Virus record (IMG/VR): IMGVR_UViG_3300029260_000348
Location: 1 to 21,229 of that record
Reading direction: 5' to 3' (one strand)
DNA from: a virus
DNA length: 21,229 nucleotides
Position numbers and translations under genes: made by a program. Under the pieces are notes generated by a model. That model did not search any database. It worked only from the letters and a program-made list of their open reading frames with translations, and was not told the DNA's origin. Below are positions 3,271 to 10,359 of this stretch, piece by piece. Position 1 is the first letter of the stretch. Each line of letters opens with the position of its first letter.

Positions 3271-3969
3271 CTAGTCTCCTAAATTAAAATATTTTTCACA
3301 ACGTTTCAACCATTGATATTTATAATCGTCAAAACGATCCCCATTAATTGTAAATATTTGTAAGTTCATGCCACGAGAAGCCATTAAAATTACTCCCGCT
3401 TCTAGCTTAGTGCCGTACAAAGCATCGTGCGCCATAGCGTAGGCGGCTAATTGCATAAAATAATCTTGCACATACTTCTCAATTTTTGGTTTGTTAGTTT
3501 GCTTGAAATCTATAATTGCTGGTTGACCGCGCCATACTCCCACACAGTCTGCCGTACCACCATAAAAAGTTGGGTAATATAAAGTTACTTCCGTGCCCCA
3601 ATACTCGTCCATAGATGGTAGCGCACTTTTAATAACTAACTGTGCCATGCGTTTGCCAATAACTCCGATGTTAGTTCGGTCATCATAGCCTACGCCTTGA
3701 ATGTGACACTCAAGAAACTTGTGCATTGCCGTACCTACCGAACCCGCTTGGTTTTTAATAGCTTCCGCTTGTTCTAGACCGACCCGTTGTTTCCAACGTT
3801 CTAAACCAGCTAAGTCAGCTTTAGTTTTTGTTTGTGATAGAATAGTTGTTACAGAGGGTAAAAACTTACCTTCACCCTCGTAATGCCTGCGCCCGTTGAC
3901 CGTCTTTCGACGTACTTCGTGGTACGGGTATTTAGCGGTGATCAAAGATGTATTATTCTGAATGACCAT
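3271..3969 (-). CDS. PD-(D/E)XK exonuclease (RecB/Cas4-like)
   Basis: A 232-residue nuclease of the RecB-like PD-(D/E)XK superfamily. Signature elements in order: GTAMHKFLE with His83, GGTADCVG with Asp141, IIDFK with Asp154 and Lys156, and the QLAAY motif (Gln173, Tyr177) typical of RecB/Cas4-type exonucleases. No Cas4 iron-sulfur cysteine set is visible. In phages this family processes DNA ends during replication and recombination, in the role played by T7 gp6 or lambda Exo; that role is inferred here. It starts inside the end of the preceding small basic gene (17-base overlap) and is followed after one base by the oxygenase gene. Confidence 0.85.
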   Translation of the reverse strand: MVIQNNTSLITAKYPYHEVRRKTVNGRRHYEGEGKFLPSVTTILSQTKTKADLAGLERWKQRVGLEQAEAIKNQAGSVGTAMHKFLECHIQGVGYDDRTNIGVIGKRMAQLVIKSALPSMDEYWGTEVTLYYPTFYGGTADCVGVWRGQPAIIDFKQTNKPKIEKYVQDYFMQLAAYAMAHDALYGTKLEAGVILMASRGMNLQIFTINGDRFDDYKYQWLKRCEKYFNLGD

Positions 3970-4415: not shown

Positions 4416-4658
4416 ATGACTAATATAGATAATATTGTCGTGCATTACGACCAACGAAAGCAAAAATATAAGTATTTTAACAACGCTAGGCCTTCGCCGA
4501 CTAAACTGACCAAAGGTAATATATCCGCTGCGGTTAATCATTACCAAAGAGTTATGCATACGGGACAGTTTGCGCGTTTGACTAGTGCCCAACAAAAATC
4601 CGTGGTATGTTTACGAAGAAAATGGGAGACATTACAATATGCGCACAGAATTAGATAA
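4416..4658 (+). CDS. Hypothetical small phage protein
   Basis: An 80-residue basic protein that I do not recognise. It begins MTNIDNIVVHYDQRKQKYKY, rich in Tyr, Lys and Gln, and continues with a helical arginine-rich C-terminal half. No cysteine cluster, signal or membrane segment is visible. The start at 4416 is chosen for the AGAAAGGA site 5-7 bases upstream. It is the first of two rightward genes from the divergent promoter region, and its last 20 bases overlap the start of the TSCPD gene, which suggests coupled expression. Confidence 0.6.
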   Translation: MTNIDNIVVHYDQRKQKYKYFNNARPSPTKLTKGNISAAVNHYQRVMHTGQFARLTSAQQKSVVCLRRKWETLQYAHRIR

Positions 4659-4947
4659 CCGTAGACCGTGTTACAAAGAAACTATCCGTGACAACAACGG
4701 CACCCCTTATTTATTAACCGTATCTTTTGACTTTGGTGGCATCAAAGAAGCATGGATGTCGGGTGGCGGTAAAGCCGGCACCGAACGTCCGGATATTTTA
4801 ACTGAAGTTGGTAGGTTAGTATCAGTGTCATTACAAAACGGTACGCCGTTAGAAGATTTAAGATCGTGCGCTACTTATCGTTCGGATGGTACGCCATCCA
4901 CTGTAGTTGGGGTTATGCTAGACCGAATGTCAGAGTTAGGTGACTAA
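4639..4947 (+). CDS. Stand-alone TSCPD-domain protein (NrdJ C-terminal type)
   Basis: A 102-residue protein that matches from memory the TSCPD domain found at the C-terminus of B12-dependent ribonucleotide reductase and as small separate proteins in alphaproteobacteria and their phages. Matching blocks are NRRPC near the start, GGIKEAWMSGGGKAGTE (about 34-50), the helix GRLVSVSLQNGTPLEDLR (about 58-75) and the final STVVGVMLDRMSEL. The usual cysteine-rich TSCPD tail is absent. No reductase catalytic gene lies in this window. The start ATG at 4639 has GGGAG 9 bases upstream and overlaps the previous gene by 20 bases. It ends head-to-head with the zinc-ribbon gene, sharing 4 bases. Its function as a separate protein is not known to me. 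Confidence 0.7.
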   Translation: MRTELDNRRPCYKETIRDNNGTPYLLTVSFDFGGIKEAWMSGGGKAGTERPDILTEVGRLVSVSLQNGTPLEDLRSCATYRSDGTPSTVVGVMLDRMSELGD

Positions 4948-5258
4948 TTTAATTCGTCGGGGTCAATATCTGGGTCGTATTCAAATTCGAACTCGAACTC
5001 AGATTCCTCAAAATCATTTAAATCGTTTTTAATAGAATCTTGTAGTGACGACTCGGGGGTAAATACAAAAGATATTTTATTGTTCATGGCACGGGCAATA
5101 CCAATAGGTACGTAGACTAGTTTACCGTTTTTAAATTGTTTGAATGGTTCAAAACATAATTTGCAATAGAACAAACTTTCTTTTTCACACGTTACTTTCA
5201 TAGTAGTTAGTTTATGACAACCCGGACATACCGAAACACTGACTATATTGTCTTCCAT
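4944..5258 (-). CDS. Zinc-ribbon protein with acidic tail
   Basis: A 104-residue protein with an N-terminal zinc ribbon (Cys11/Cys14 in CPGC and Cys32/Cys35 in CKLC) and a strongly acidic C-terminal tail (about residues 77-104, alternating Glu and Phe followed by Asp-Pro repeats). Acidic tails in phage replication proteins often contact partner proteins or mimic DNA, but no specific function can be assigned. Its ATG overlaps the DNA polymerase stop codon (TAATG), so it is probably coupled to polymerase translation as the last gene of the replication operon. The 3' end overlaps the rightward TSCPD gene convergently by 4 bases. Confidence 0.7.
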   Translation of the reverse strand: MEDNIVSVSVCPGCHKLTTMKVTCEKESLFYCKLCFEPFKQFKNGKLVYVPIGIARAMNNKISFVFTPESSLQDSIKNDLNDFEESEFEFEFEYDPDIDPDELN

Positions 5259-7120
5259 TACTTCGCATCGCCCCAGTTATCCGCTAAGGCATAGTCTACT
5301 TTACTAGGTATCTTTAGTTCTACACATGTTTCCATTTTACGTGCAATTTCCTTTGCTTGTTTTTCGTTATCTACTGATATATTAAGTTCATCGTGCACTT
5401 GTATATGTGGTATAATACCATCTTGTTCGTATAAATCTACCATTGCTTGTTTAGTTTGATCCGCCGCAGAACCTTGAATTAACTTATTTAAAGCCTTATA
5501 AGTACCAGCGCGTTTATATTGCCCATGACCTTCGGCCTCTATAGCTTCCTCTTTAGTCTTAAAGAAACCTTTTTTACCAAACTCCCTTGGCTCATAGAAA
5601 GGGAAACGACATATACGACCTTTTAAAGTTTTGATTTTGCCACGTGCCTCTGCTTCAATCATTAAGTTTTTAGTCAACTGTTTCACAAATGGTACTCTGC
5701 TTTGATAAGTGTTGATAATCTCTTCGGCTTCTTTGCTGTCAATACCTAATTCCGTCATAAGTTTGTTTTTACCCATGCCGTAAAATAAACCAAGATTAAT
5801 TGTTTTGGCTTGGCTTCTTGGTATCTGGGCTATCTCGGCTACCATCTGGTGAAAGTCAGCCTCGCCTTTGCGATAACCTTCCACTATCTTACCAACTTCT
5901 AAACCGTCAGTGTGTGCATAGTGTACGACTAAACGTGGTTCTTGCTGTGAGTAATCAAACGTACCCCAACGTTTGCCTCGTTCAGGTACAAAAAGACTTC
6001 TAATAATCTTTTTAATAAACGGGTTTCGTGCTGGTATCTGTTGTAGATTTGGATTGGAGTAACTAAAACGACCGGTGACCGTCCCCCCATCATCACTGCG
6101 CATCTGATGTATTTCCGAATGAATACGACCTTTGTGCTGGTGACGTAGAATGGTTTCAATAAAGGTACTATTAGCTTTGTTTATTTCCCGTGCATCAACG
6201 ATCATCTGTGCCAACGGATGTTCATTACTAGATAGAAAGTTTTTCGTAAAACTTGGGGCACCACTCTTCGGTGTTCTTGGGTAAGCTATATTTAAATGAT
6301 CGAAAGCCTTAGCGATAGAAGCTGCCGCCCATACTTCAATGTCGTGGCCAGAAGTTTTCTTTATCTGATGCATAACTTCTTTCTCTTGTGCTGATAAAGT
6401 TGCACGTGCTTGTTCTGCCGCATCAAGATCTACGCGTACCCCATGCGCGCGCATATCAATTAAACATGGTTGTAGTCGACGTTCTAAATCATAGATGTCT
6501 TCTAAGTTTTGCGCTTTAATTTCTTCTTGGTTGTATATAAATAGATCATACGTAAGCCGTGCATCCATCTCAGCGTATTCGCCAACGTGCATAGCTGGTA
6601 GCTTGTACATTTCTTTTTTCGGATCAACTCCGTGTGCTTTGGCTGCTTGTGTTAAACCACTCTCGTTCTTGGTTCGTCCCAATTTATCTTTAGCTAAACT
6701 ATTCAAAGTAAACGAATATCTATTCTCGTCAATTAACGCACTTGAAATCATGGTATCGTGTATGATACCATTGACGGTTATGCCCATATGTCTGAGCCAA
6801 CCTAAATCGTACGAAGCGTTATGAAATATCTTCTCTGCGTTATTGCCTGCAACTTTTTTAAACCACTCTACTACGGTCTTCTTATTAAGGTTACCACCAT
6901 TGTGTGCAATAGGATAGTAGCCTTCCCACTCTGCCGTAGCTACAGCAATACCAGTTACATAACCATCGTCACGTGCCCAACCGGAACCGTGCGTAATTAA
7001 ATTGGTGTCACACGTCTCTAAGTCAATGGCAATAAATTTTTCTTTAGACAAGTCTGGAAAATATTCCTTTGCCGTCCACTCAATAGGTTCGTTGTACGTA
7101 AATAAATTAATTTGATTCAT
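5258..7120 (-). CDS. polA: Family A DNA polymerase with 3'-5' exonuclease
   Basis: A 620-residue replicative polymerase of the phage family A type. The proofreading exonuclease comes first: DLE (Asp33, Glu35), NASYD (Asp105) and YAEMD (Tyr182, Asp186). The polymerase motifs follow: motif A FDYSQQEPR with Asp389; motif B RSQAKTINLGLFYG with Lys439 and Tyr447; and motif C QVHDE with Asp577 and Glu578. There is no 5' nuclease domain, as usual for phage enzymes. The residue equivalent to E. coli Phe762 is Leu443, encoded by CTT at 5792-5794. In marine phage surveys Leu762 polymerases form a distinct lineage linked to slower, more selective synthesis. The ATG overlaps the DUF3310 gene by 14 bases. 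All catalytic residues are present. Confidence 0.96.
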   Translation of the reverse strand: MNQINLFTYNEPIEWTAKEYFPDLSKEKFIAIDLETCDTNLITHGSGWARDDGYVTGIAVATAEWEGYYPIAHNGGNLNKKTVVEWFKKVAGNNAEKIFHNASYDLGWLRHMGITVNGIIHDTMISSALIDENRYSFTLNSLAKDKLGRTKNESGLTQAAKAHGVDPKKEMYKLPAMHVGEYAEMDARLTYDLFIYNQEEIKAQNLEDIYDLERRLQPCLIDMRAHGVRVDLDAAEQARATLSAQEKEVMHQIKKTSGHDIEVWAAASIAKAFDHLNIAYPRTPKSGAPSFTKNFLSSNEHPLAQMIVDAREINKANSTFIETILRHQHKGRIHSEIHQMRSDDGGTVTGRFSYSNPNLQQIPARNPFIKKIIRSLFVPERGKRWGTFDYSQQEPRLVVHYAHTDGLEVGKIVEGYRKGEADFHQMVAEIAQIPRSQAKTINLGLFYGMGKNKLMTELGIDSKEAEEIINTYQSRVPFVKQLTKNLMIEAEARGKIKTLKGRICRFPFYEPREFGKKGFFKTKEEAIEAEGHGQYKRAGTYKALNKLIQGSAADQTKQAMVDLYEQDGIIPHIQVHDELNISVDNEKQAKEIARKMETCVELKIPSKVDYALADNWGDAK

Positions 7121-7337: not shown

Positions 7338-8830
7338 AGTGATAACATAAAGTGCATGTTAGTTTGTGGTAGTAATATATGTAATTCTTCTTTGGCTCGA
7401 GTCGCGCCAACATAAAATACCCGTTGTTCGTCGTCCGCACTCTTGCGGTATTCGCTATAAGTTTTTACATTCATGTCTGTTGCTAGTAGTACCTTATCAC
7501 ACTCACCACCTTTTGCACCATGTATTGTGGATATTCTTATCCTTGGGGTTGAAAATATATCTTCGTCACTTTCGTTTAATCTAATTAAGTAAGCACGATC
7601 GTGTAAATTAATTTTGTCTAATGCCTGTAACCAACTGCCAACACTAAACGGTCCTAGTAAAACTTTCAACGTATCTAAATCATAAAGCTGACTGTCGTTA
7701 AGTTTATCAAAAACATCTTGAAAGTTATTTTTAGTTTGTTTGTAAAAAAATATTTTCTTTAAAGTTTTTTTATCAACGGCTCTGCCTTCGCTTAATTCTT
7801 TCCAGCCAATGATCGCATCAAACACTCGTTTAGCTATAGGCTTAGTAAATTTTTTGCGTTCTAAACGTTCGTACCACAGACCTTGCTCACGGCAAGCGTC
7901 CTCAAGTTTCTTTAGAATAAAACGATCTCGACCTAGAATAAGCCAGTTTCCTTTAGAAAAATCAACCCCTTCAATGACTTGGTGGTAGTGCACTGAGCCT
8001 TCTTCGACTCGTGCTTCCCATTGTTTCTCTATTCTGTTCTTAGTTAAACTAATTATGCTCTGTGCAAAATCTTGTACTGATTTTTTTAAACGATACGATT
8101 TAGGTAAAACTATTTCGTCACCACGGTACTCAATAAAACGTTCTACGTCTGCACCTAACCAACGATAAATAGCTTGGTCGTCGTCGCCAGCTAAATATAA
8201 TTTGTCTGCGGTAGTTGCAAAATGTTCTACCATCGCCCATTGCAAAGGTGTTAAATCTTGTGCTTCATCAATAAACACTACGTCTAGGTGGGGTAATAAA
8301 TTTTCGTTCACTGCCTCGTAAAGCATATCAGTGTAATCTATAAAACCATTCTCTTCTTTATAGGAATCATACGCTTCAGCAACATAACTAAGTTGTTTCC
8401 AATTTATTCGCGTAGGGTCAGAATACTTACTGTAGTGCTCTTCTAACGAAATGCCACGTGCTCTAGCCAAGGCATACTCATTCAAATAAAAGTTTTCTGA
8501 TATACCAGTTTCAGAATCTACACTAGACATGTTGAAACCAATCTTGTCACCAAAAGATTTAAACTGTTCTTTCTGCATTACCGCGCGACCTTCTAAATCA
8601 ATTGAATGATAACCACAAGAATGCAATGTAGAGAACCATCTAAAATCTTTTTTATCTAACTTAAACTTTTTTACTGCTCGGTCTCGTGCTTCCTCGGCCG
8701 CTTTGCGAGTAAAAGAAAAATAACCTATTTTTTTAATGTCGGTTGTGACCATAGCGTCTTCTACATAATTAAGTAAAGTGGTTGTCTTACCAGTGCCCGG
8801 CGGCCCAAGAACTTTTATTATGCTCGTCAC
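7334..8830 (-). CDS. Superfamily 1 DNA helicase, UvrD/PcrA-like
   Basis: A 498-residue helicase that should unwind DNA with ATP, probably at the phage replication fork or in repair. Motifs in order: Walker A GPPGTGKTT (residues 9-17), GYFSFTRKAAEEA (motif Ia, about 36-48), Walker B IDEAQD (187-192), GDDDQAIYRW (215-224), STIHGAKGGECDKV near the C-terminus and VGATRAKEELHIL (motif VI). The protein is shorter than bacterial UvrD (about 720 residues), as is usual in phages, with reduced 1B/2B insertions. The start codon is GTG at 8830, overlapping the primase stop by 4 bases (GTGA). The next in-frame Met lies beyond Walker A, so GTG must be the start. Confidence 0.93.
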   Translation of the reverse strand: MTSIIKVLGPPGTGKTTTLLNYVEDAMVTTDIKKIGYFSFTRKAAEEARDRAVKKFKLDKKDFRWFSTLHSCGYHSIDLEGRAVMQKEQFKSFGDKIGFNMSSVDSETGISENFYLNEYALARARGISLEEHYSKYSDPTRINWKQLSYVAEAYDSYKEENGFIDYTDMLYEAVNENLLPHLDVVFIDEAQDLTPLQWAMVEHFATTADKLYLAGDDDQAIYRWLGADVERFIEYRGDEIVLPKSYRLKKSVQDFAQSIISLTKNRIEKQWEARVEEGSVHYHQVIEGVDFSKGNWLILGRDRFILKKLEDACREQGLWYERLERKKFTKPIAKRVFDAIIGWKELSEGRAVDKKTLKKIFFYKQTKNNFQDVFDKLNDSQLYDLDTLKVLLGPFSVGSWLQALDKINLHDRAYLIRLNESDEDIFSTPRIRISTIHGAKGGECDKVLLATDMNVKTYSEYRKSADDEQRVFYVGATRAKEELHILLPQTNMHFMLSL

Positions 8831-10359
8831 TCTGCTTGATACTCTTTTCGGTCCTTCATGTCCGGAGTAGCAACTTCGATATCCTCGAACTCATCAGTAA
8901 ACTCTGGTATTGACCACACTTTAATTTTCTTTTCCTTATCGTCGGGTTTAGGCATACGTAAAGTAGTGAGATTACCTTTTAATTCTTTCTCTAAAATATT
9001 AGACATCTTGTTTCGATTGTAGACAGTAAACTTTTTCTTTTGTAAATGATCTTCTAATGATGCTAATAAAAAATAATGTTTGCCATTATCACGATACGGT
9101 TTGTTTAAGATAATCTCTTCTTTCACTTGTGCCGCACCTTTATTGGTACACCAATCACGTAAATGCTCTATAAAAATCTCTTTGTTACTAACACCTTGTA
9201 CATCAGGCTCACTTACATTTTGTAATAACGCTTGAATACGTTCTCGCCAACGACCCGGTGGCATCTGCGCTGGCATGCTATTTAACTGCTCCATACATTT
9301 CTTTTGGAAACGATTTTGATTTTGTAAATCTTCTGTTTCTAGTTCCAAGGACTGTTCACCTTCAAGAGATAGAAACCATAGTGGCGGTTCAGTACCGTAC
9401 TTTTCTAAACCAGTTGCTGCAATCTCCATTTCTATTTGACCCTTGCCGTACTTACGGCGTAGGCATTCTCGACGATTGCAATTAGAAGATAATGGTTCTT
9501 TATTGCACGCATAGTCATACTCTTTACCCGATACAGAACGATATATTTTCTCAATGTCTTGTTGTGTTAATGCAGGGTCACACATATCTTTATTGATGTT
9601 TAATAAATCTAATAAAAATTCTGAGTTACCAGACTTTTTGTAAAACACTGCTACGTTAGTCATAGTTTCATCGCGCCCTCCTTCGGGTACACCATTATGG
9701 TGTAAAGTGTTTAGGCAAGGTGGTCCGTCTTGAAAAAAATCTTCTAACTTAATAAAATCTACATCTGCGTTTTTCTGCGCATACACATCGTATAAGGTAT
9801 AAAATTGCTCTAAACTACAAGGTTTACCTTGATCATCTATTGCGTAACGTTCGCCATTTTCTGAATTAAAATAAGGTAAATTTAAATAGTTTCCTGTTTG
9901 CCCTTTATCCAATAACAACTTTACTTGTTTTGGAAAAATTTCAGATCCCGCACAACCTAGAAAAGAAGAAAATTCTTTTAATCTAGATTGCACGAGAGCC
10001 GCTTTCACAGGGACAGTGAAGAACATGAAGACATGAGCACCACCACTTTTAGATCTAAATACGATCAAAGGTAGCCCATGTTTTCGAATCTTTTTAATCA
10101 ACTCAAGGTGATCAAAACCATTGTATTTGTCTATGTCGATACAACCCCAACGACATTTATTGTTTTCGTCAATCGGTATAGCACCTAAACTTTCAGTACC
10201 TTCTAAATGATTTTCCCAAAGTTCGTCGGGTATACCATCGGGACACCTAACAATTTGGTTCTTACCTTTAAGTTTACCATTAATATCTTTATCTTCTGGT
10301 ACGAATTTACCATAGGCAATACTAAGCCCTTTAAATATATTTCTAAACTTCTCTGACAT
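8827..10359 (-). CDS. Archaeo-eukaryotic-type primase (PrimPol-like)
   Basis: A 510-residue protein whose first ~200 residues form an AEP-type primase/polymerase domain: the metal-binding pair Asp75 and Asp77 in CIDIDKYN, the FRSKSGGAHV motif (101-110) and the NYLNLPYF segment (157-164). This order is like that of primases in TOTE-type systems and many phages. A four-cysteine set (Cys215, Cys285, Cys294, Cys299) near residues 210-300 suggests a zinc knuckle of the PriCT kind. The C-terminal ~200 residues have no motif that I recognise, although a winged-helix-like segment may lie around 390-470; no helicase ATPase is fused. It lies just downstream of a terminator and overlaps the helicase start. 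A DnaG-type primase is excluded by the motifs. Confidence 0.85.
   Translation of the reverse strand: MSEKFRNIFKGLSIAYGKFVPEDKDINGKLKGKNQIVRCPDGIPDELWENHLEGTESLGAIPIDENNKCRWGCIDIDKYNGFDHLELIKKIRKHGLPLIVFRSKSGGAHVFMFFTVPVKAALVQSRLKEFSSFLGCAGSEIFPKQVKLLLDKGQTGNYLNLPYFNSENGERYAIDDQGKPCSLEQFYTLYDVYAQKNADVDFIKLEDFFQDGPPCLNTLHHNGVPEGGRDETMTNVAVFYKKSGNSEFLLDLLNINKDMCDPALTQQDIEKIYRSVSGKEYDYACNKEPLSSNCNRRECLRRKYGKGQIEMEIAATGLEKYGTEPPLWFLSLEGEQSLELETEDLQNQNRFQKKCMEQLNSMPAQMPPGRWRERIQALLQNVSEPDVQGVSNKEIFIEHLRDWCTNKGAAQVKEEIILNKPYRDNGKHYFLLASLEDHLQKKKFTVYNRNKMSNILEKELKGNLTTLRMPKPDDKEKKIKVWSIPEFTDEFEDIEVATPDMKDRKEYQAE

Follow-up and report, generated by a model that had tools for sequence, protein, structure and literature searches.

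Ribonucleotide reductase genes serve to mark, in the ocean, both the replication style of phages and B12 dependence. The TSCPD domain is an alpha+beta, IscU-like module; in many class II (B12-dependent) reductases (NrdJ) it follows the catalytic barrel and precedes the zinc/cysteine tail. The class II C-terminal domain in this position has been described as IscU-like; no role was reported for it, and a contribution to oligomerisation was suggested (PMC9669993). In the S. nassauensis NrdJ, dATP/dGTP-induced tetramers and hexamers form only with the entire C-terminal region, which electron transfer via six cysteines also requires (PMC5704485). In the split class II reductase of P. aeruginosa, NrdJb too encodes the tail-region domain as a gene of its own, an IscU-like domain with a zinc finger (PMC4520616, PMC9669993); this separately encoded tail subunit binds NrdJa near its C-terminus and mediates disulphide exchange (PMC4520616). 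Among phages, the published description of the Rhodobacter RcC group lists a TSCPD gene (see below) as ribonucleotide reductase among the nucleotide-metabolism genes (PMC8601537).

The window (the whole stretch of DNA analysed here, 21,229 nucleotides) is a 21-kb fragment of a marine virus of bacteria. It holds no ribonucleotide reductase, as the original prediction stated, and the TSCPD domain is encoded alone, in an open reading frame whose product starts with MRTELDNRRP and ends with SELGD, lacking the cysteine tail. TSCPD (PF12637) is the sole Pfam match of this protein (E 2.8e-4); its 21.5 bits are just short of the gathering cut-off of 22.8 bits, while 11 of 11 related viral records tested exceed it (24.6–37.9 bits), including G009, which bears a 99%-identical copy. 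The predicted family assignment thus falls narrowly short for the window protein by itself and holds for its relatives. Taken together, the protein is almost certainly a free-standing TSCPD/IscU-like protein. It is not a class II reductase in its own right: it has 102 residues, and neither the protein nor the related records contain the reductase barrel, PF02867. The gene was found in 24 viral loci in scans of IMG/VR, at 65–100% identity, with its start codon, length and place conserved across the 24 contigs and a dN/dS of ~0.03–0.16 (NG86, pairs computed). It is a real gene under purifying selection.

Table 1. Positions of the TSCPD genes and of the genes around the window copy (numbering of the window unless a locus is named).
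Feature	Position	Strand	Length	Remarks
TSCPD (IscU-like) stand-alone protein, without cysteine/zinc tail	4639..4947	+	102 aa	
Small basic protein	4416..4658	+	80 aa	overlaps TSCPD start by 20 nt
Convergent neighbour, Cys pairs	4944..5258	-	104 aa	overlaps TSCPD stop by 4 nt
DNA polymerase A	5258..7120	-		52-53% identity to pelagiphages HTVC027P/HTVC023P and phage 023Pt_psg01
Cas4-like / PD-(D/E)XK exonuclease	3271..3969	-		
TSCPD gene of NrdJ-less genome G109	L247 5409-6227			
TSCPD gene of NrdJ-less genome G201	L249 6144-6968			
TSCPD gene of NrdJ-less genome G033	L248 4744-5580			

The TSCPD gene and the gene of the small basic protein form a plus-strand pair amid minus-strand early genes, the divergent unit that had been proposed for them. 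The overlapping pair is kept in the nearest relatives of the window (L003, L004 and L008), and a homologue of the basic protein is reported for L005 too. The basic protein matches no family above cut-off in Pfam, PHROG or NCBIfam; it has a conserved end, FARLTSAQQ.SVVCLRRKWETL. The convergent neighbour, conserved within the window clade, is a probable zinc binder. Synteny with the window extends to G012, a viral contig of 62 kb, in which the TSCPD gene likewise stands beside the polymerase, at the corresponding position. The three phages named with the polymerase in Table 1 have genomes of ~58–61 kb each, and relatives of the window phage infect Pelagibacter. No TSCPD domain is present in these three or in phage DSL-LC04. 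HTVC027P (L021 8172-8819) and 023Pt_psg01 (L022 7251-7910) have a PurM-like gene of ~215 residues directly after polA, near the spot that the TSCPD pair occupies in the window clade. Megablast found no near relative of the window among phage records, and a consensus promoter scan did no better than on shuffled sequences. Elsewhere in the window are a primase with an AEP-TOTE domain (PF22548) and PriCT-1 (8827-10359), and a putative metallopeptidase with a HEILH motif (573-1055, phrog_1233).

Profile-profile comparison bore out the predicted homology with the C-terminal part of class II reductases. The window-clade profile aligned with NrdJ TSCPD domains over columns 2–81 (hhalign probability 96%, E 2.9e-9), and with the free-standing members outside the window clade over columns 2–99 (98.4%, E 7e-15), an alignment that takes in the DGxPSxxxG end. 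A profile of 16 free-standing proteins (A4) matches NrdJ in most of 192 alphaproteobacterial genomes, typically at E 1e-18 to 1e-21. The phage protein and the C-terminal PF12637 domain of NrdJ share the LPxRR entry motif and the S..LQ.G core; unlike NrdJ, the phage protein is without the barrel, zinc finger and cysteine tail, and has its own clan and signature residues. The core LPxRR...E.F...K.G...S..LQ.G is kept in the free-standing family; R2, L5, P6, R8, R9, G21, E37, F39, K45, G47, S62, L65, Q66 and G68 are common to NrdJ and the family at large, whereas D56, R80, G84 and G91 are the free-standing proteins' own signature. The window clade has variants of its own, with LP changed to LD or similar, F39 to W, D56 to E and R80 to Y.

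In a tree of 89 TSCPD domains (IQ-TREE), 67 free-standing proteins, window clade included, separate from the NrdJ domains at 100/100, and the window clade itself is supported at 100/100; the window protein is represented by the 99%-identical L003. The window protein very probably belongs to this clan of mobile-element TSCPD proteins. The free-standing proteins have probably parted from the NrdJ domains as a single group, and they have lost the electron-delivering cysteines. Given a short alignment, a bootstrap that had not converged and an arbitrary root, a single origin of the clan is likely, not proven. Three kinds of sequence are placed among the NrdJ domains instead: the Manatee Spring phage protein, the viral protein L132 and the TSCPD proteins of NrdJ-less cellular genomes; these look like further, separate splits. 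L132 (4980-5393) is a free-standing viral TSCPD ORF of 137 residues, still NrdJ-like in sequence, which groups with the phage NrdJ L123 and is apparently a separate, later split.

The AlphaFold2 model of the window protein (33 sequences, mean pLDDT 91) has strands β1–β3 followed by three helices, in keeping with the IscU-like domain published for class II reductases. No solved structure was matched by sequence, Foldseek against the PDB gave no match at E <0.001, and an NrdJ C-terminal query aligned to the solved NrdJ chains over its barrel portion only. The best three matches in BFVD are small proteins of phages, of which two bear the name ribonucleoside-diphosphate reductase. In a second look, IscU and SufU chains were among the better structural matches (Z ~5), beside unrelated folds, which is weak when taken alone but gains support from the published account of the NrdJ domain (PMC9669993).

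The window gene is a member of a large family and not an isolated case. The wider family could be reached only by walking through diverged relatives: the window protein had no tblastn match in 50,697 phage records even at E 10, a scan of bacterial genomes with the window protein singly confirmed no relative, and the protein matched nothing in PHROGs, NCBIfam or PADLOC. With the relative L013 as the tblastn query, an unannotated 105-residue ORF was found on a Bradyrhizobium plasmid with a terminase gene, along with hypothetical proteins on Rhodoplanes and Beijerinckia plasmids. The Bradyrhizobium ORF in turn matched proteins of Rhodobacter phages, including RcKemmy gp62 (113 aa), EBPR podovirus 2 gp11 (117 aa), the Manatee Spring phage protein, and proteins of Phaeobacter, Ruegeria and Paracoccus plasmids; several of these are annotated as ribonucleotide reductase. 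A scan of IMG/VR with ten family proteins gave at least 113 related viral stretches. All but one of the 79 viral ORFs inspected are free-standing, the remaining one (L123) being a full NrdJ. A distantly matched Cupriavidus plasmid had no TSCPD-like ORF in its ORF listing. The members of the free-standing TSCPD family are ~100 residues long and occur in phages, phage-plasmids and prophages of Alphaproteobacteria. The family's genes have DNA methylase, helicase, primase and polymerase genes as neighbours, and SSB genes directly adjoin the TSCPD gene in several plasmids and contigs. On the Phaeobacter and Ruegeria plasmids the TSCPD and SSB genes have thermonuclease genes nearby, and the window itself encodes a thermonuclease-like protein (1385-1855).

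The names given to these proteins are misleading and have hidden the family. The genes of the RcKemmy gp62 type in the Rhodobacter RcC phages and of EBPR podovirus 2 gp11 adjoin DNA-metabolism genes and are annotated as the enzyme. RcKemmy gp62 (L039 6001-6342) is a TSCPD protein, while gp16 of the RcD phage RcMcDreamy (L260 13555-15447), a product of 630 residues, bears the same name, so that ‘ribonucleotide reductase’ covers two different things. Widespread phage proteins, some of them so labelled, are the tail-region domain of the enzyme alone.

The viral carriers of the free-standing gene that were examined lack the enzyme from which the domain is known. No reductase barrel turned up in 15 related contigs (G012, at 62 kb, among them) or in four related phages, and a phage nrdJ from which the domain might have been split was likewise absent from the related contigs, one of which is near-complete. 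Of the 29 carriers that are 31 kb or longer, the L123 contig alone has the barrel; it is absent from 28 of 28 carriers of the free-standing gene in this size range (a few being near-duplicates). No free-standing member inspected has a CxxC in its last 40 residues. All 13 cellular genomes with a free-standing phage-type copy do encode NrdJ, compared with about two thirds of the 192-genome sample, a difference uncorrected for kinship; since NrdJ is common in those orders, this co-occurrence is suggestive only. A different situation is seen in G109 and G201, genomes of ~1.2 Mb (GC 27% around the TSCPD gene), which have a class I NrdA next to NrdB and no NrdJ; the NrdA of G201 ends in CLSC. Both keep a tail-less TSCPD protein of 272–274 residues with the NrdJ-type domain well conserved, indicating that the domain can be kept, and can have a role, without NrdJ. 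G033 likewise has class I NrdAB and no NrdJ, and its TSCPD protein retains the cysteine tail. These genomes are putatively SAR11-like in size and composition.

What, then, might the phage protein do? The suggestion in the original prediction that it modulates the host reductase is plausible, and we tentatively favour, at somewhat less than an even chance, action on the host dNTP supply through the class II reductase NrdJ. The TSCPD protein would be an early, replication-associated phage protein; most likely it would bind host NrdJ at the sites where the TSCPD domains of the enzyme itself pack. There it would compete with the dATP/dGTP-induced higher oligomers formed by the tail region and so change the enzyme's assembly, feedback or activity while phage DNA is being made. 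Given the replication-gene neighbours and the presence of NrdJ in every cellular carrier of the phage-type copy, a small, early NrdJ-binding protein is the best-supported mechanism, although nearly every early gene in phages of these orders would be expected to have such neighbours and an NrdJ-bearing host. Lacking the cysteine tail, the phage protein is unable to replace NrdJb as electron carrier, and electron delivery is excluded as a job for the phage proteins. It is accordingly very improbable that the protein is a tail subunit of a split class II reductase, as the P. aeruginosa precedent might suggest: NrdJb keeps its zinc finger and cysteines and a catalytic partner, NrdJa, whereas the phage protein has no zinc finger or CxxC, no catalytic subunit was found in the related records or the larger carriers, and the family has a separate place in the tree. 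This reading was dropped for the missing cysteines and partner. An Fe-S scaffold or carrier like IscU or SufU, which the second-look structural matches would fit, is scarcely more probable. The alpha+beta arrangement seems similar, but the cluster-binding cysteines of the scaffolds are not conserved in the phage protein; no cysteine is conserved across the family (the best column reaches 31%), C11 and C77, though invariant in the window clade, are private to it, and the Z of ~5 may reflect only a common arrangement. For want of conserved cysteines this candidate too was rejected. Least probable of all is that the gene is a fragment or decaying remnant without function; its shortness and its kinship to one domain of a larger enzyme would fit, yet the selection and the conservation described above, in a family that is broad and long-lived, argue against decay. 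A role in defence was discarded for want of matches.

A role independent of the class II reductase is a much closer competitor to NrdJ binding and is nearly as likely, if still doubtful in absolute terms. Here the free TSCPD protein would be, for example, a partner of the class I NrdAB, a partner of a replication protein, or a dNTP-responsive regulator, and NrdJ would merely contain a fused copy of the domain. The tail-less proteins of G109 and G201, in genomes with NrdAB and no NrdJ, point in this direction, with G033 showing the same reductase set; so do the conserved residues peculiar to the phage family and the directly adjoining SSB genes. Against it, the TSCPD proteins of NrdJ-less cells fall with NrdJ in the tree, outside the phage clan, and may be relics of recent date, and the cellular carriers of the phage-type copy have NrdJ without exception. 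A broader form of the idea we consider rather unlikely: the TSCPD/IscU-like module would regulate dNTP supply or replication as a unit complete in itself, put to use independently in cells that have lost NrdJ and in many alphaproteobacterial phages and plasmids, and would be fused to NrdJ in only part of its range.

Between them, the tail-less phage copies and the NrdJ-less cellular copies make the role of the domain directly testable, for instance in Rhodobacter capsulatus. In the three NrdJ-less genomes, which are alphaproteobacterial, small and AT-rich, the chromosomal TSCPD gene lies beside accBC and an NDUFA12-like gene.
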